A DNA stretch of 38,402 nucleotides from Verrucomicrobiota bacterium. Lineage in GTDB: Bacteria; Verrucomicrobiota; Verrucomicrobiia; Verrucomicrobiales; DEV007. Location of the stretch: NCBI GenBank assembly GCA_018970725.1, contig JAGWVU010000046.1, positions 1 through 38,402 of the forward strand, in the 5' to 3' direction. Within the stretch, counting starts at the first letter, position 1; every line of letters starts with the position of its first letter. Below are positions 9,021-29,476 of this stretch, piece after piece. The notes beneath the pieces are model-generated. The model was not told the DNA's origin. It was given only the letters and a program-made list of their open reading frames with translations, and did not search any database. The position numbers and the translations under genes were made by a program.

Positions 9021-11942
9021 ATGCAGATTGCCAGCCCTTGGAAGCCCCTCCTCGTCGGGGTCCTGTCGGCCCTTCTGTTATTCTCCCCCGCTCTCCCGGT
9101 TTCCGCCGCGGTGGACGCGGCGATTTGCGAGCAGGGATTGAACGATGCTGACGTGTGGCCGGAGAGACCCCCGGAGGCGACCGAGCGTTTTGTGATTCCG
9201 GCCTTTGCCCTTGATCGCCTGCCGGCGAAGTTTGTGGACGAAGGCCTGCGCGGGGAACGGCCGAGCCCCTCGTTGCTCCGCCTGACCGCCGAGGTTTCCC
9301 TGCCACCCGGGAACCACCGCTTCCTGATCCGTTCGCGCAGCGCCGCCAGACTCTTCATCGGTGATCGGCTCGCCGTGGAGACCCCGTTCGCCCCCAAATC
9401 AGGCGGTGACGGCTCCCAGAATCCCGAGCGTTTGGTGCCCCTCGATCTGGGCCCCGGTTACCGGTTCGCGCCGAACGGCGAATACGAGCGCATCGCATCG
9501 TTCTCCGTGCCCGCAGGTGGCCCGCTCACCGTGCGACTCGAGGCCTTCGCGGGCGGTCGCGAAAACAAGATGCCCCGGCGCGTCGAACTCGGCGAGACGG
9601 TCGCTGCGATTGCCCTCGAGGGAACGGACGTCTGGCGCGTTCTCGGACCGGAAGGCCCTGGGTTCGCCTACACCGATGCCGACTGGGCGACCTATCAGGA
9701 GCGGACGCACCGGGATCTTGACCAGCTCGAAGCGGCCACGCGCCGCAGGCTCCGGACAGCCGGTGACGTCCTTTGGCAGGATCGCCGAGCCGCCGCCAGG
9801 CAATGGTTGGCGGCCACGACGGAGCAACCGGTCCCGGCTGCCGGCGGGGACCCGCATCCCATCGACCGTTTCCTCGGCGCCAAGCTGGCGGCAGTCGTGG
9901 CCCAGCAGGGCAACCCGGACTTGTCCGGCCCCGGCGCGATCGATTATTTTCGTGACATCAAACCGCTCCTCGACAGCCGCTGCCTCGAATGTCATCGGGG
10001 GGAGCGGGCCAAGGGACGTCTGCGCCTTGATTCCCGCGCCGGTCTGATGGCAGGGGGAACGAGTGGGCCGGCGGTCATCCCCGGCGATCCCGCGCGAAGC
10101 GAAATCTTCCGCCGCATTACCCACGGCGATCCGGATGAGATCATGCCGCCCAAGGGCGCCCCCCTGACCACGGAGGAGACGATCCGGCTGGCCCGTTGGA
10201 TCCAGCAAGGCTTGCCATGGCCGGACTTCCCCTTGGTCCGACGGGAGCCGACCCGCCTCTCGGACGATCTCAGCTTCCTTCGCCGCGTCACGCTCGATAC
10301 CGTCGGCGTCCCTCCCAGCGTGGCGGAGATTGAGGTTTTCCTTGCGGATCCGCGGCCCGGGAAGCGCGCTGCGGTGGTGGATCGACTGCTTGCGGACCCG
10401 CGTTGGGTCGATGCCTGGATGCCCCTTTGGCAGGATCTGCTGGCGGAAAACCCGAACATTCTCAATCCCACCCTGAACAACACCGGACCGTTCCGCTGGT
10501 GGCTGCGCGACGCTCTGTCCGATGATCTTCCGCTCGACCGGATGGTCACCCAGCTGGTGTTGCAAGGCGGATCTTCCTCCACCGGCGGCCCGGCCGGTTT
10601 TGGCGTCGCGTCCCAGAACGACGCCCCGTTCGCGGCCAAGGGCACCATTCTGACCGCAGCCTTCCTCGGGGTGGAGACCAAGTGCTCCCGCTGCCATGAT
10701 TCTCCGACCGGCTCGACCAAGCAGGAGCAGCTTTTCCAAATCGGGGCCATGCTGGCCTCGGGGCCGATCGATGTGCCGGTCACCAGCAGCGTCGATCCGG
10801 TGAAATTGCATGCCGGGGGACGGAAGCCACTGATCGAGGTCACGCTCAAGCCCGGGTCCAAGGTGGAGCCGGTCTGGCCATTCGGTTCCTTCCTCCCGGC
10901 ATCCCCCGGCGTCCCTGCGGCAAACCCGCGGGAGCGACTTGCCTTCCTCCTGACCGCCCCGGAAAACGAACGATTCGCCCAAGTCTGGGTCAACCGGATT
11001 TGGGCCCGTTACATGGGGCGCGGCATCGTGGAGCCATTGGACGATTGGGAGAAGGGCGCGCCTTCCCATCCGGAACTGCTGCGTTGGCTGGCTCGCGAGT
11101 TTGTCCGCGCCGGCTATCAGGTCAAGCCGATTGCCCGGCTCATCCTCACCTCGACCGCCTACCAACGCGCCACGGACCCGGCCTTGCGGGCCCCCGATCC
11201 GCTTTACACCGCCCCGGAACCCCGCCGTCTGCTGGCCGAGCAGGTGGTCGACTCGATGATCTCCGGAACCGGGAAACCGGTGCGGTTGGAACCCCTCTGT
11301 CTCGATCTCAACGGCCGCAGGGACATCAAGAACTCCACGCACTTGGGAACGCCGGGCCGGGCCTGGATGATGGCCTCGCTCTCCAACGAACGGGACCGTC
11401 CCAGCCTTTCCCTTCCCCGGCTTCAGGCCATGACCGACGTGCTTGCTGCGTTCGGATGGCGTGGAGCGAGGCAGGATCCGGCCTCCGTGCGCGACACCTC
11501 GCCGAGCGCCCTGCAAGCCGCCATTCTCGCGAACGGGGTCCTCACCCGTTGGGTGACGCGTCTCAGTGAGGATCACCCGATCACCCGGGCGGCAGTCGAA
11601 GCTACCTCCGCAGAGGGCTTGGTCGACCATCTCTACCTCCGCCTTCTGAGCCGTCGCCCGGAAGCCGCGGAGCGGGAGCGCCATGCGGCCTATCTCCGCG
11701 ATGGCTTTGCGCAGCGATTCATCCCGAACCCGGTTCCGGTCGCCCGGCCGCACACGCCGCCCAAGTTCGTCACGTGGACGAATCATCTTCTGCCGGAGTC
11801 GAACCTGGCCAAGCAGGAACTGGCGCTTGAAGCCGAGCGGGGTGATCCTCCCACCCTGCGGCTTACCACGTCCTGGCGCGTCCGATGCGAGGACGTCATC
11901 TGGGCTCTCCTCAATTCCCCCGAATTTCTTTACCGTTCCTGA
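9021..11942 (+). CDS. Secreted di-haem PSCyt1/DUF1549/DUF1553 protein
   Basis: A 973-residue exported protein. An N-terminal signal peptide (about residues 1-30) is followed by a beta-rich part with PA14-like character (about 85-230). A planctomycete-type cytochrome c domain carries C321-L-E-C-H325 in [14 protein letters not shown], and MPPKGAPL lies downstream with a possible methionine ligand. DUF1549 (about 400-600) carries a second haem motif C555-S-R-C-H559. DUF1553 fills the C-terminal part (about 660-973), ending [11 protein letters not shown]. The family is abundant in planctomycetes and Verrucomicrobia beside sulfatases; its biochemical role is not established, and an oxidative or electron-transfer role is inferred from the two CxxCH motifs. 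The DUF1501 gene starts inside its stop codon (TGATG), so the two are co-translated partners. The length is normal for the family. Confidence 0.9.
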
Positions 11943-25320: not shown

Positions 25321-27900
25321 ATGTCGAAAACACTGATCATCGCAGAAAAGCCCAGTGTGGCCCTCGACTTGACCCGGGCCCTCGGCAAGTTACCCGAGGT
25401 CGGGAAGTTTGAGAAGGTGGAGGTTTCCAAACGGGACAGCTACCACGAGAGCGAGAACTTCATCGTCTCCTCGGCGGTCGGACACCTCGTAGAACTCTGC
25501 ATGCCCAATCAACAGACGGGCGCCAAGTTGAAGTGGAGCTTCGAGCACCTGCCGATCATGCCCGAGAGCTTCGAGCTGCAGCCGATCGAGGACAGCAAGC
25601 CGCGCCTTCAAATGCTGATCAAGCTGATGAAGCGGAAGGACGTGGGCACCATCATCAACGCCTGTGATGCCGGCCGCGAGGGGGAACTCATCTTCCGTTA
25701 TCTTGTCCAGATCGCCGGGGTGAACAAGCCGATGAAGCGGATGTGGATGCAGTCAATGACCAATCAGGCGATCGTCGATTCGTTCCGCCACCCGCGGAGC
25801 GACGAGGAGATGCGTCCGCTGGCCAATGCGGCGATGTGCCGCTCGGAGAGCGATTGGTTGGTTGGAATCAACGGAACCCGGGCCATGACGGCATTCAATT
25901 CCCGTTACGGGGGATTTACGAAGACCCCGGTGGGTCGGGTGAAGACGCCGACCCTTGCCATTCTCGTGGAGCGGGAAAACCAGATCCTGTCGTTCGTCCC
26001 CCGGGATTACTGGGAGGTGCAGGCCGATTTCGCCGTCAAGGCGGGGATCTACCAGGCCCGTTGGTTTGATGAGGCCTTCAAAAAGGAGGAGGACGACCAC
26101 GACCGGGCCGAACGGATCTGGGACCGGACCCTGGCGGAAGCCATCGTGGCGCGCTGCCGGGGAAAACAGGGCGAGGTGGAGGAAAAGAAAAAGCCGCGCA
26201 AGGAGTCCGCCCCCCTCTTGTATGACCTCACCAGCTTGCAACGGGAGGCCAACGGGCGCTTCGGCTTCAGTGCCAAGCGCACCCTCGAACTGGCCCAGCG
26301 CCTCTACGAAAAACACAAGGTCCTGACCTATCCCCGGACCGACTCCCGCTTTCTCCCGGAGGATTATGTCACCGTGGCGGCCGAGACCATGAAAAAGCTC
26401 TCGGGTGGTGCGGCGGCGCTCGGCGACAACGCCAAGCACGCGGCCAAAGCCCTCGCGAACGGTTGGATCCGGCCGAACAAGCGCACGTTCGACAACACCA
26501 AGGTCAGCGATCACTTCGCCATCATTCCGACCGGGGAACTGCCCGGAAAGCTCGAGGACGTGGAGTTCAAACTTTATCAGATGGTACTGCAACGGTTCAT
26601 CGCCGTCTTCTTTCCGGCCGCCGAATTTGAACTGACCACCCGGATTACCCGGATCGCCCGGGACGCGTTCAAGACCGAGGGCAAGATCATGCTCGCTGCC
26701 GGCTGGCGCGAGGTTTACGGGGGTGAAGTCGGGTCGGAAAAGGACAAAATCCTCGTCGCCGTGGCTCCGTCGGAGAATGCCATGGCGGAGAGGGTCGAGA
26801 CCGAGGCCAAGGTCACCAAACCACCCGCCCGCTACACCGAAGCCACCATCCTCTCCGCCATGGAAGGTGCCGGGAAGCTGGTGGACGACGAGGAATTGCG
26901 CGCCGCAATGTCCGAACGGGGGCTCGGCACCCCGGCCACCCGGGCCGCCACGCTGGAAGGCCTCATCGCGGACAAATACGTGATCCGGAGCGAGAAGGAT
27001 CTCATCCCCACCGCGACCGGGCGGAAGCTCATCGAACGGCTCCAGGAGATCGGGGTCGATATCCTCGCTTCCCCCGAGATGACCGGCCAATGGGAGCACA
27101 AACTGAAGCGGATGGAACACGGCGAACTGCGCCGCGACACCTTCATGGCGGAGATCCGGCAGCTGACCGACGAGGTTGTGGCCAAGGCCAAGACCTCCGC
27201 CCGCGATGCCAAGGAGCGGACGTTTGATCCGCTGGATGTCCCCTGCCCGATCTGCGCCACCCGCCCGTTGCGCCAGGAGGAAGGCTCTTACCGGTGCACC
27301 GCCTGCAAGTTCTCCATCTGGAAGACCATCGCCAGCCGGCCCATGCAGGAGGGAGAGATCGTGGAATTGCTCACCCGGAAGTTCCTCGCGCCGATGGATG
27401 GCTTCCGCAGCCGCCGCGGCGATGAGTTCTCCGCCGCGCTGGAAATCGGTGAGGATGGCAAGGTCGGATTCGTCACCGAGAAAAGTCAGGAGCGGGAGCG
27501 CGAGGCCGGGGAGACAGACCGGCAGGACAACGTCGTGGCCCGGTGCCCGATCTGTCAGAGCACCATCCACGACACAGAGACCGCCTACGTGTGCCGGAAC
27601 CATGCCCGGACCAAGTGCAAGGCCCGGCTCCCAAAGGAAATGTGCAAGCGCCTGCTGGGTCCCGGGGAGGCCCGGGCTTTCTTTGAAGAGGGCCGCACGC
27701 CACTCATCACCGATTTCATCTCCAAACGAAACCGGCCCTTCAAGGCCCATCTCGTGCTCAATCGGGAGGGGAACCGGTTGTTCAGCTGGGAATTCCCTCC
27801 CCGTGAAGGCAAGGGCGGGGACGAGACCGGCGGTGGCAAGGCTCCCGCCAAGAAAGCCGCGCGGAAGGCCCCTCGCAAGTCGGGGCCGCCCCGTTCCTGA
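25321..27900 (+). CDS. topB: DNA topoisomerase III, type IA, with zinc ribbons and basic tail
   Basis: An 859-residue type IA topoisomerase that cuts and rejoins single strands to resolve recombination or replication intermediates. The TOPRIM domain has LIIAEKPSVA and the metal site NACDAGREGELIFRYL. The active tyrosine is Y337 in LTYPRTDSRF. ATILSAMEGAGKL and RGLGTPATRAATLEGLI are the usual later motifs. The C-terminus carries a four-cysteine zinc ribbon (CPICATRPL...CTAC), a topoisomerase III C-terminal repeat, a second cysteine cluster (CPICQSTIH...C...C) and a Lys/Ala-rich tail of the kind that binds DNA. These additions make it longer than E. coli TopB, as in other Verrucomicrobia and Bacteroidetes. 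It stands alone, 42 bases after dprA. Confidence 0.95.
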   Translation: MSKTLIIAEKPSVALDLTRALGKLPEVGKFEKVEVSKRDSYHESENFIVSSAVGHLVELCMPNQQTGAKLKWSFEHLPIMPESFELQPIEDSKPRLQMLIKLMKRKDVGTIINACDAGREGELIFRYLVQIAGVNKPMKRMWMQSMTNQAIVDSFRHPRSDEEMRPLANAAMCRSESDWLVGINGTRAMTAFNSRYGGFTKTPVGRVKTPTLAILVERENQILSFVPRDYWEVQADFAVKAGIYQARWFDEAFKKEEDDHDRAERIWDRTLAEAIVARCRGKQGEVEEKKKPRKESAPLLYDLTSLQREANGRFGFSAKRTLELAQRLYEKHKVLTYPRTDSRFLPEDYVTVAAETMKKLSGGAAALGDNAKHAAKALANGWIRPNKRTFDNTKVSDHFAIIPTGELPGKLEDVEFKLYQMVLQRFIAVFFPAAEFELTTRITRIARDAFKTEGKIMLAAGWREVYGGEVGSEKDKILVAVAPSENAMAERVETEAKVTKPPARYTEATILSAMEGAGKLVDDEELRAAMSERGLGTPATRAATLEGLIADKYVIRSEKDLIPTATGRKLIERLQEIGVDILASPEMTGQWEHKLKRMEHGELRRDTFMAEIRQLTDEVVAKAKTSARDAKERTFDPLDVPCPICATRPLRQEEGSYRCTACKFSIWKTIASRPMQEGEIVELLTRKFLAPMDGFRSRRGDEFSAALEIGEDGKVGFVTEKSQEREREAGETDRQDNVVARCPICQSTIHDTETAYVCRNHARTKCKARLPKEMCKRLLGPGEARAFFEEGRTPLITDFISKRNRPFKAHLVLNREGNRLFSWEFPPREGKGGDETGGGKAPAKKAARKAPRKSGPPRS

Positions 27901-27927: not shown

Positions 27928-27943
27928 AATCAAGATATTGGGC
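27928..27943. promoter_or_regulatory. NrdR-box-like site, distal
   Basis: The core CAAGATATTG (27931-27940) matches the remembered NrdR-box core CWATATATWG at nine of ten positions. Its reverse complement differs from the proximal site at one base. Confidence 0.5.
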
Positions 27944-27960
27944 TCACTTTCACATTGACG

Positions 27961-27976
27961 CCACAATATGTTGATG
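27961..27976. promoter_or_regulatory. NrdR-box-like site, proximal
   Basis: The core CAATATGTTG (27964-27973) matches CWATATATWG at nine of ten positions and ends 20 bases before the nrdR start codon. It lies 33 bases from the distal site, about three helical turns, close to the known spacing of paired NrdR boxes. Confidence 0.55.
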
Positions 27977-27992
27977 GAAATCTCAGCCGTTC

Positions 27993-28493
27993 ATGCGTTG
28001 CTTGAAGTGCCAGAGTGTCGAGGACAAGGTGATTGATTCCCGGATGTCCAAGGACGGGGACCTGATCCGCCGGAGGCGGGAGTGTCTTCAGTGCGGTCAC
28101 CGGTTCACGACCTACGAGCAGCTCGAGCAGACCGAATTGCGCGTCATCAAGCGCGACGGCACCCGGGAGTCCTTCAGCCGGGCCAAACTTCTTTCCGGGC
28201 TGGTCAAAGCCTGCGAGAAACGTCCGGTCTCCATCGACGCCCTGGAGTCGGCGACCGACTCGGTGGTGCAGGAACTCACCTCCACCGGGATGAAGGAGAT
28301 TCCCACGCGCCTGATCGGGCCCATCGTGATGCGGGAGCTGCAAAGCATCGATCCCGTGGCCTACGTGCGCTACGCCAGCGTCTACCGGCAGTTTGAAGCC
28401 GTCGGAGAGTTCATCGATGAGATCCAATCCTTGGAGCGCCTGCCAAAGGCCAGCAAGGATCAGCCCGAGCTTTTCGCTCCGGTCGGCAGCTGA
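27993..28493 (+). CDS. nrdR: Transcriptional repressor NrdR
   Basis: A 166-residue repressor of ribonucleotide reductase genes that senses ATP and dATP. An N-terminal zinc ribbon has CLKC and CLQC pairs with the basic RRRRE between (residues 3-45). An ATP-cone covers about 46-140, beginning RVIKRDGTRESFSRAKL and ending VAYVRYASVYRQF. The C-terminal tail is short. The length agrees with the family. Two NrdR-box-like sites lie upstream, so it probably represses itself. No nrdA, nrdB or nrdJ gene is in the window. A hairpin separates it from topB. Confidence 0.97.
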   Translation: MRCLKCQSVEDKVIDSRMSKDGDLIRRRRECLQCGHRFTTYEQLEQTELRVIKRDGTRESFSRAKLLSGLVKACEKRPVSIDALESATDSVVQELTSTGMKEIPTRLIGPIVMRELQSIDPVAYVRYASVYRQFEAVGEFIDEIQSLERLPKASKDQPELFAPVGS

Positions 28494-28517: not shown

Positions 28518-28556
28518 CCACACCCACCCCAACACCCTAACACACACACCAACATT
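28518..28556 (+). other. 39-base tract without a single G, CA-rich
   Basis: From 28518 to 28556 the plus strand has no G and consists mostly of CA and CCC units, in an otherwise GC-rich window. It lies between the nrdR stop and the next start. C-rich, G-poor, unstructured RNA is the usual form of a Rho-loading site, so it may end the nrdR transcript; this is inference. Confidence 0.4.
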
Positions 28557-28590
28557 GATCTCTCTTGCCGAACAGTTGCCCGTCCTCAGG

Positions 28591-29115
28591 ATGCCCCGGG
28601 GAGAAGTTGTCCGCTACGAAGAGTCCTGGTTCCTCAACATCATCGAGGAAGCCGCCCGGCGCGCCGGCATCAAGGACGTCTGGTTTGCCGAGCACATCGC
28701 CCGCGGCATTGTCATCTATCTCCGGGAACGTTTCCCCCAGTCGTCGATCGGCATCGAAGAACTCTTCGAGAAGATCTCCCAGACGCTCCACGTGGTCGGC
28801 TTCCCGCAGATCGCCCGCGAATTGGAGCCGTCCGCCCCTCCGGCGGTGACCAGTTTGGAGTCGCTGGCCTCGCAGGCGGGCAACGCTTTCGAGTTGAGCT
28901 TCTTCCAGTTGCTCGGCGCGGCCCTGCGTGACGCCCGGGCCCGCGGCTCCGTCCAGATCCATTGCGCTGGGCTCAGTCCCGCCGTGACCCGCCTCTGCCA
29001 GGCCAAGCGCTGGGGCCGCCGCTGCGAGGTGCTCCGGGATGAGATCCTTGCCTTCGTGGCCAGCGAGCTCGCCGGGTCCGAGTCCCGCGGAAGGTTCTCC
29101 GCCATCGTCTCCTGA
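28591..29115 (+). CDS. Unrecognised 174-residue protein with ATP-cone-like N-terminus
   Basis: I do not recognise a named family. The chosen ATG 28591 has only a weak AGG directly before it; an in-frame TTG at 28555 is an alternative, and the frame stays open through the G-free tract upstream. Residues about 8-78 run ESWFLNIIEEAARRAG, AEHIARGIVIYLRE, GIEELFEKISQTL, VVGFPQIAREL. This order of helices and hydrophobic positions resembles an ATP-cone, but the usual basic N-terminal nucleotide-binding strand is poor. Residues about 85-174 are an alpha/beta part with VQIHCAGLSPAVTRLCQAKRWG. It has no signal peptide or membrane segment. It stands between nrdR and a HIT gene, 16 bases before the latter, all in one direction. 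Confidence 0.7.
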   Translation: MPRGEVVRYEESWFLNIIEEAARRAGIKDVWFAEHIARGIVIYLRERFPQSSIGIEELFEKISQTLHVVGFPQIARELEPSAPPAVTSLESLASQAGNAFELSFFQLLGAALRDARARGSVQIHCAGLSPAVTRLCQAKRWGRRCEVLRDEILAFVASELAGSESRGRFSAIVS

Positions 29116-29131: not shown

Positions 29132-29476
29132 ATGACGATCTTCCAAAAGATCATCGATCGCGAAATCCCCGCGGATATCCTCCATGAGGACGAGCGCTGC
29201 ATCGTGTTCCGGGATATCAGCCCGCAGGCGCCCGTTCACCTGCTCATCGTTCCCAAGAAGCTGATTCCCCGGGTGGGTGAGGCGTTGCCGGAGGACGAAG
29301 CGGTCCTCGGTCACCTCCTCCTCACCGCGGCTGCGGTCTCGACCCGGTTGGGCCTCAATTCGAGCACCGAAGGCTTCCGCCTCGTCATCAACAATGGCCG
29401 GGCCGGCGGGGAGGCTGTTCCCCATCTCCACATCCATCTTCTGGCCGGGCGTCAACTCGGCTGGCCCCCGGGTTGA
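29132..29476 (+). CDS. HIT-family nucleotide hydrolase or transferase
   Basis: A 114-residue HINT-type protein that hydrolyses nucleoside phosphoramidates or related adenylates; the physiological substrate is usually unknown. The opening TIFQKIIDREIPADILHED and AFRD-like IVFRDISPQAPVHLLIVPKK are the family start. The catalytic triad motif is H98-L-H100-I-H102-L-L, preceded by NNGRAGGEAVP. The length is normal. ATG 29132 is chosen over an upstream GTG or ATG that would add residues without family support. It follows the ATP-cone-like gene closely and precedes the tRNA. Confidence 0.93.
   Translation: MTIFQKIIDREIPADILHEDERCIVFRDISPQAPVHLLIVPKKLIPRVGEALPEDEAVLGHLLLTAAAVSTRLGLNSSTEGFRLVINNGRAGGEAVPHLHIHLLAGRQLGWPPG

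Follow-up and report, generated by a model that had tools for sequence, protein, structure and literature searches.

The two NrdR boxes that precede nrdR in this Verrucomicrobiota genome very probably constitute the operator of an autoregulated nrdR unit, likely with the next gene, orf3, as a member, and a second, predicted operator of the same repressor precedes nrdB-nrdA. NrdR is the repressor of ribonucleotide reductase, the maker of DNA building blocks, and the subject here is the operator of its own gene. For Verrucomicrobiota, it provides a clean example, by computation, of NrdR autoregulation, and one genome offers two predicted operators that differ in spacing and promoter register. 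The promoter geometry, the split between 32-bp and 33-bp spacing, and the reductase-like gene after nrdR are additions to the preliminary description of this DNA. Below, the window denotes the whole analyzed stretch of 38,402 nucleotides.

The box pair and the probable promoter of nrdR

The features of the window discussed here are as follows.

25321..27900, plus strand: topB, the upstream neighbor; NF006032 match of 1124 bits
27928..27943, plus strand: NrdR box 1, 16 bp, with the core CAAGATATTG at 27931-27940; read from the sequence and ranked first by the profile
27955..27960, plus strand: probable -35 element TTGACG, directly 5' of box 2; TTG register seen in relatives
27961..27976, plus strand: NrdR box 2, 16 bp, with the core CAATATGTTG at 27964-27973; identified from the sequence, the profile, and relatives
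27978..27983, plus strand: probable weak -10 element AAATCT, assigned by eye on the alignment of relatives; TAnnnT-like in several of them
27993..28493, plus strand: nrdR, 166 aa, Zn-ribbon and ATP-cone; TIGR00244 match of 197.2 bits (cut-off 124.65)
28555..29115, plus strand: orf3, 186 aa, ATP-cone-like N-terminal half and NrdD-like C-terminal half, outside any curated family
29132..29476, plus strand: HIT-domain gene, which follows orf3 in many relatives; PF01230 match of 87.8 bits

The assignment of nrdR is further supported by its two domains (PF22811, 71.5 bits; PF03477, 73.0 bits). The boxes start 33 bp apart, which leaves 17 bp between them; box 2 ends 16 bp before the nrdR start at 27993, and only 27 bp separate the end of topB from box 1. 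Both boxes fit the published core pattern C.[AT].A[AT].[AT].G, which we took from the methods of PMC12051234. For an NrdR operator we looked for a box distance of 14-17 or 24-27 bp and for a pair that precedes nrdR or a reductase gene and is kept in orthologs; here the distance is 17 bp, the pair stands before nrdR, and it recurs in 21 of 32 upstream regions of the family. The preliminary description had placed two boxes at 27928-27976, 33 bases apart and just before the nrdR start. Direct reading of the sequence returned exactly this interval, and the coordinates bear out the spacing.

Taken singly, such boxes are unremarkable: a 14-letter consensus with up to two mismatches has one match in the window vs. 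4.3 expected. Against the classic 16-letter consensus, both pairs are imperfect, the nrdR pair matching at 22 of 32 positions and the nrdB pair at 23 of 32. An Rfam search yielded no match.

The position of box 2 relative to the probable promoter is regular. In 24 of 26 family nrdR pairs the first base of a TTG, in most cases part of TTGACA or TTGACG, stands exactly 6 bases upstream of box 2; several relatives have a hexamer after the box that is TAnnnT-like or weaker. With a TTGAC -35 element immediately before it, box 2 fills the probable spacer between -35 and -10, and NrdR bound there should therefore exclude RNA polymerase. The leader of the nrdR transcript likely begins only a few bases before the ATG, with the start expected at about 27985-27993. 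A scan with the sigma-70 consensus reported no promoter at the nrdR site.

At five loci of relatives (L018, L019, L023, L027, and L150) the stretch from box 2 to the nrdR ATG contains an inverted repeat, such as GTCTC-N6-GAGAC. It overlaps the expected -10 element and transcription start, is incomplete in the window, and may be a site of a further regulator.

The predicted operator before nrdB and conservation in relatives

The whole genome (4,915,303 bases, 4.9 Mb) was searched with a sequence-only profile, R1, built from 42 operators of the same family with the genus of the window excluded; these 42 of the 65 sites from relatives are all those of the family minus three (both sites of G006 and the nrdR site of G011). 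At E<=10 only two places were found, each also seen on the opposite strand. The first rank is the nrdR site itself (29.0 bits, E 4.6e-6), and the second is a site before nrdB on another contig (C94:39310-39355, minus strand; 22.4 bits, E 5.7e-4). The scan scored 150 of 240 first-look candidates, so that weaker sites may have been missed. The loose published pair pattern, restricted to the one spacing of this site, occurs 13 times in the forward genome vs. 19 times in the reversed control, and therefore cannot be used alone. A strict pair pattern, devised after the boxes had been seen, finds one place in 4.9 Mb and none in the reversed control; it missed the nrdB pair because core positions 2, 4, 7, and 9 vary in the clade. 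Within the genome, only the full profile discriminates.

The nrdB and nrdA genes form one operon; no other reductase gene of class I or II was found in this genome, which also lacks an identifiable NrdD. The earlier remark that no reductase gene is nearby was right, since nrdB and nrdA lie on a contig other than the window, and the genome search that it proposed for the same pair before reductase genes has now found one at nrdB. The promoter register of this second operator is different: in 23 of 27 nrdB pairs a TTG stands at -8 or -9 from box 1, often with a TA-containing hexamer after box 1, which places the upstream box in the nrdB promoter spacer. The nrdB operator ends 164 bases before nrdB (region L003:10146-10360, minus strand), and the nrdB leader should therefore be long, unlike the very short leader expected for nrdR. 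A tRNA-like sequence, recognized by eye, is located upstream of nrdB (L003, about 10660-10760, minus strand).

Conservation was assessed by counting pairs with the published pattern at a box distance of 14-17 and comparing the counts with dinucleotide shuffles. In the same family, including the genus of the window, a pair was found in 21 of 32 nrdR upstream regions (0.08 expected), 19 of these 21 at distance 17, and in 26 of 29 nrdB regions (0.26 expected), with 22 of 27 pairs at distance 16. In the other families of the order the counts are 7 of 19 for nrdR (0.04 expected) and 7 of 11 for nrdB (0.06 expected). The nrdR regions come from 57 genomes, of which four had no nrdR and two (G052 and G055) were left out, giving 51. 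The nrdB regions come from 46 genomes, reduced to 40 by setting aside two fragments (G027 and G033) and four cases with no start (G003, G040, G042, and G046); G005 and G028, whose nrdB start is misplaced, still count in the denominators, both among the 29 family regions. No published-pattern pair is present in 11 of the 32 family nrdR regions and in 12 of the 19 from other families of the order, and autoregulation is therefore not universal.

A score-based pair finder gives the same division of spacing: 33 bp in 22 of 26 family nrdR pairs, and 32 bp in 20 of 27 nrdB pairs, one other nrdB pair being at 33 bp. The Fisher test for 33 bp vs. any other spacing at nrdR and nrdB gives P 7e-10, which overstates the case because the relatives are not independent. 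In the operator alignment, core positions 1, 3, 5, 6, 8, and 10 are C, A, A, T, T, and G, respectively; two of these are conserved at >=90% in one box and the rest are nearly all invariant. Positions 2, 4, 7, and 9 are variable. Both boxes of the window fit the conserved positions, and the mismatches left by the nine-of-ten core matches of the preliminary description coincide with positions that are variable in the clade.

The NrdR of the window is 95% and 93% identical to the proteins of two genomes from the same genus. One of these records, CAMCXS010000104 (93% identity), bears the title Akkermansia muciniphila, which looks wrong given that identity to loci labeled Akkermansiaceae is only about 60-63%. 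Six genomes of family f4 (G038, G041, G045, G048, G051, and G054) show no orf3 and no convincing nrdR pair but have nrdB pairs, and they are a natural comparison group.

Two other explanations of the box pair have to be weighed. The first is that the conserved DNA is a promoter, i.e., a -35 element with an AT-rich spacer, and that its likeness to NrdR boxes is a by-product. Box 2 does lie in the promoter spacer, next to a strongly conserved -35 element. However, box 1 is outside the promoter and is conserved too, the same box pattern is found before nrdB with the promoter in another register, and at both nrdR and nrdB such pairs greatly exceed what dinucleotide shuffles give, so that we consider this explanation very unlikely. 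It is more improbable still that NrdR binds the sites chiefly for the sake of topB or as weak storage, with control of nrdR incidental. In favor, topB does end only 27 bp before box 1, and a connection of NrdR with topA has been drawn in P. aeruginosa, although PMC12051234 questions it. Against this, topB is transcribed toward the sites and they are located 3' of it, the pair accompanies nrdR even at loci with no visible topB neighbor, and its register is fixed relative to a TTGAC element that points into nrdR. An operator serving topB was accordingly rejected on orientation, synteny, and promoter register. A topB match was found at 12 of 110 nrdR loci; at some loci the upstream flank is short.

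Thus, an operator of NrdR itself is the preferred reading, and the self-regulation proposed earlier is supported, as a prediction, by the pair at nrdB, the out-of-genus profile, and conservation in the family. From the computed sites, spacing, conservation, and two profile matches, we infer NrdR binding and repression as follows. At high dATP, an NrdR tetramer loaded with ATP/dATP would bind both boxes, three helical turns apart; residues matching K53 and K65 of E. coli NrdR are kept in 31 of 31 aligned NrdRs. The same repressor would act before nrdB-nrdA in the other register, where the promoter spacer is occupied by the upstream box and the downstream one follows the -10 element, and the tetramer would block RNA polymerase at both nrdR (together with orf3) and nrdB-nrdA. 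With the second operator before nrdB-nrdA, the predicted NrdR regulon thus consists of nrdR and the class I reductase operon. Since nrdR would be under its own control, the supply of repressor would be capped.

The reductase-like gene downstream of nrdR

The computed gene order common among relatives is nrdR-orf3-hit. The start of orf3 is a TTG codon picked by homology, and the protein has no NCBIfam and no significant Pfam match. It stands directly downstream of nrdR at 100 of 110 nrdR loci (eight are without it and two are too short) and for 90 of 99 distinct nrdR sequences (eight without, one unknown). In a phylum sample of 288 genomes this short form was found in 37 at E<1e-30; among the matches listed, all 30 immediately follow nrdR at a distance of 28-192 bases. 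Other classes of the phylum have a long form, about 330 aa in length (90 matches at E<1e-13). Among the matches listed for it (53), 31 lie <=150 bases downstream of nrdR, four about 1.9 kb away, and 18 elsewhere. In G149, G152, G172, and G219 (genus g99) the long form is found 1.9 kb downstream of nrdR with something between. Four genomes among the matches listed have the long form with nrdR not found (G090, locus L263; G102, locus L262; G248, locus L265; and G269), and either nrdR was lost or these assemblies are incomplete. Near long-form genes (30 loci), profile R1, which was trained on the family of the window, found no site at E<=1.

How closely orf3 is tied to nrdR bears on its control. 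The gap between the genes is 61 nt in the window, long enough for a separate promoter; a terminator scan of the gap found none, but shuffles give only 0.6. Of 109 loci tested for both features, 37 have the nrdR box pair (35 with orf3 and two too short to tell), 64 have orf3 but no detectable pair, and the eight without orf3 are also without the pair. Given 35 vs. 64 orf3 loci with and without the pair, the link between operator and orf3 is suggestive only. One may then suppose that orf3 has its own promoter and an unrelated role and merely adjoins nrdR, a reading for which the 61-nt gap, the 64 of 109 loci without a detectable pair, and the long-form genes found elsewhere (18) or at 1.9 kb (4) all speak. 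Constant adjacency of the short form to nrdR in the matches listed (30 of 30) and the ATP-cone and NrdD-like parts, which tie orf3 to the same pathway, argue against it, and we regard it as rather unlikely. More probably, orf3 belongs to the nrdR unit and is co-transcribed with it, and NrdR would therefore set the amount of its product too.

The resemblance of orf3 to reductases was examined with two alignments, A2 for the short form (60 of 101 orf3 loci) and A4 for the long form (14 of 16 long frames, the two left out being shorter). The AlphaFold2 model of orf3, computed with 60 sequences, has a mean pLDDT of 88.3. For residues 5-93 the seven best rows of the fold search are ATP-cones of NrdR, NrdA, NrdB, and NrdD with Z 9.7-10.4; the NrdR chain 9a6n, an integrative model, is matched by residues 5-92 with Z 10.4 and rmsd 2.3 over 84 residues. 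The best Foldseek E-value for this half is only 1.1e-3. Residues 96-186 match NrdD 8p23 (Z 9.3, rmsd 2.0, 90 residues, 18% identity), and the comparison with 4col gives Z 9.6 over 91 residues in a range starting at 21. Rows for p97 in the fold search of the C-terminal half reach Z 6.1-6.5, below the NrdD rows. Helical models can reach such Z values by chance, and fold alone is therefore insufficient.

Sequence comparison points to NrdD. Against a profile of 30 NrdD frames from the phylum, picked by similarity, the N-terminal half of orf3 aligns with the ATP-cone (score 42.5, P 1.3e-5) and the C-terminal half with columns 587-643, a piece of the barrel (score 32.0, P 5e-4), the halves following in the same order as in NrdD. 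In controls, 100 column shuffles gave maxima of 22.6 and 19.8 and reversed profiles 15.4 and 14.9 for the N- and C-terminal halves, respectively. An earlier alignment of 28 NrdD rows, less clean because it was made of the longest frames with at least three very short rows and possibly wrong frames, gave 28.3 and 33.6; the maxima of 120 shuffles were 17.9 and 14.3, and reversed profiles scored 11.8 and 18.8. Single-sequence comparisons are weak, both with one NrdD (P 0.0085 for the C-terminal half and 0.28 for the N-terminal half) and for the short-form halves with the NrdA of the same genome (P 0.2 and 0.026). The class III reductase model PRK07111 of NCBIfam weakly matches two of 60 short-form members (best E 0.0056), and class III models match two to four of the 14 long-form members each (best E 2.8e-7). 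A PDB sequence search with the orf3 profile returned one chance-level match.

The ATP-cone model PF03477 (gathering cut-off 25.8) does not match orf3 itself and gives E<=1 for nine of 60 short-form members (best 0.0017); of two long-form proteins compared with the same cut-off, one passes (40.6 bits) and another fails (17.7 bits). The N-terminal part of the long form is similar both to NrdR (P 7.4e-6) and to the N-terminal part of the short form (P 1.9e-18). A direct hhalign comparison of the short-form profile with NrdR showed no similarity, so the assignment of an ATP-cone to the short form is based on the fold, the similarity to NrdD, and the long form. By sequence, the C-terminal part of the long form resembles neither NrdD nor the corresponding part of the short form; descent of this part from NrdD was considered on a fold match of Z 7.6-7.8, a common range, and is not claimed.

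The orf3 position aligned with K65 of NrdR is W in 60 of 60 sequences and that of K53 is hydrophobic in 60 of 60; in this alignment, made by eye over the hairpin, the nucleotide-contact lysines of the NrdR type are absent from orf3. The glycyl-radical domain and the full barrel are also absent from the 186-aa protein; in the NrdD of locus L218 the glycyl-radical match (693-792) is outside the parts aligned with orf3 (50-123 and 519-639). With the lysines replaced and the glycyl-radical part missing, orf3 looks non-catalytic, and canonical nucleotide binding has probably been lost. Thus, orf3 looks like a non-catalytic reductase derivative made together with NrdR. As to its role, we hypothesize that the product, made along with NrdR, would most likely target NrdR oligomers or the class I reductase. 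Tentatively, orf3 may found a family of reductase-derived non-enzymes, in which an ATP-cone fold with seemingly lost nucleotide contacts mixes into NrdR oligomers or docks on the class I reductase, thereby coupling enzyme activity to the state of the repressor; one operator would set both NrdR and its partner, and the long form would do likewise in other classes of the phylum. This is a speculative scenario, possible but doubtful on present evidence. If it is true, and what remains of one reductase class has been retained beside the repressor of another, NrdR would have a protein co-regulator. Such a co-regulator is unmentioned in the literature searched, which included PMC9669993 and few subscription papers and in which no ATP-cone companion of NrdR was found.

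Comparison with known systems

As an NrdR operator, the site is of a known type with a geometry specific to the lineage. PMC4989314 reports conservation of NrdR in the PVC superphylum and, for Waddlia, a predicted consensus motif of NrdR; a search at the level of titles and beginnings of abstracts found nothing on NrdR boxes in Verrucomicrobiota. The box profile of PMC9110341, based on 935 sequences from GTDB genomes, may already include such sites. The same source describes frequent control by NrdR of its own gene and, in other species, the transition of NrdR to a DNA-binding tetramer at high dATP. The paired boxes of S. coelicolor nrdRJ and of E. coli nrdHIEF, nrdDG, and nrdAB show the same pattern, with about three helical turns and promoter overlap.

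The difference lies in the spacing. According to PMC12051234, two boxes are required and 15-16 bp separate them in most bacteria, as is common in the systems above, whereas the distance in the window is 17 bp. The binding data given there for a 17-bp spacer, with KD of 45 nM for E. coli, 21 nM for S. coelicolor, and 1 nM for L. monocytogenes NrdR, indicate that binding in these three species is as good or better at this distance; for S. pneumoniae NrdR it is about 8-fold worse (340 nM at 17 bp vs. 41 nM at 16 bp). Repression in vivo in E. coli is reported for spacers of 15-17 bp (PMC12051234). Here, the nrdR and nrdB pairs of the same genomes mostly differ by 1 bp and in the box that occupies the promoter spacer.

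For orf3, three known proteins offer a comparison. Both halves align in order with class III NrdD, but orf3 has 186 aa vs. about 630-820 for most NrdD frames. Its N-terminal half shares the fold of the ATP-cone of NrdR (PF03477), but orf3 has no Zn-ribbon; in E. coli NrdR, K53 and K65, the counterparts of which are replaced in orf3, contact nucleotides (PMC12176259). The third is the ATP-cone of L. blandensis NrdB (5olk; PMC5794259), which is among the best fold matches of the N-terminal half and regulates the reductase from outside the catalytic subunit; unlike orf3, it is fused to the radical-generating subunit.
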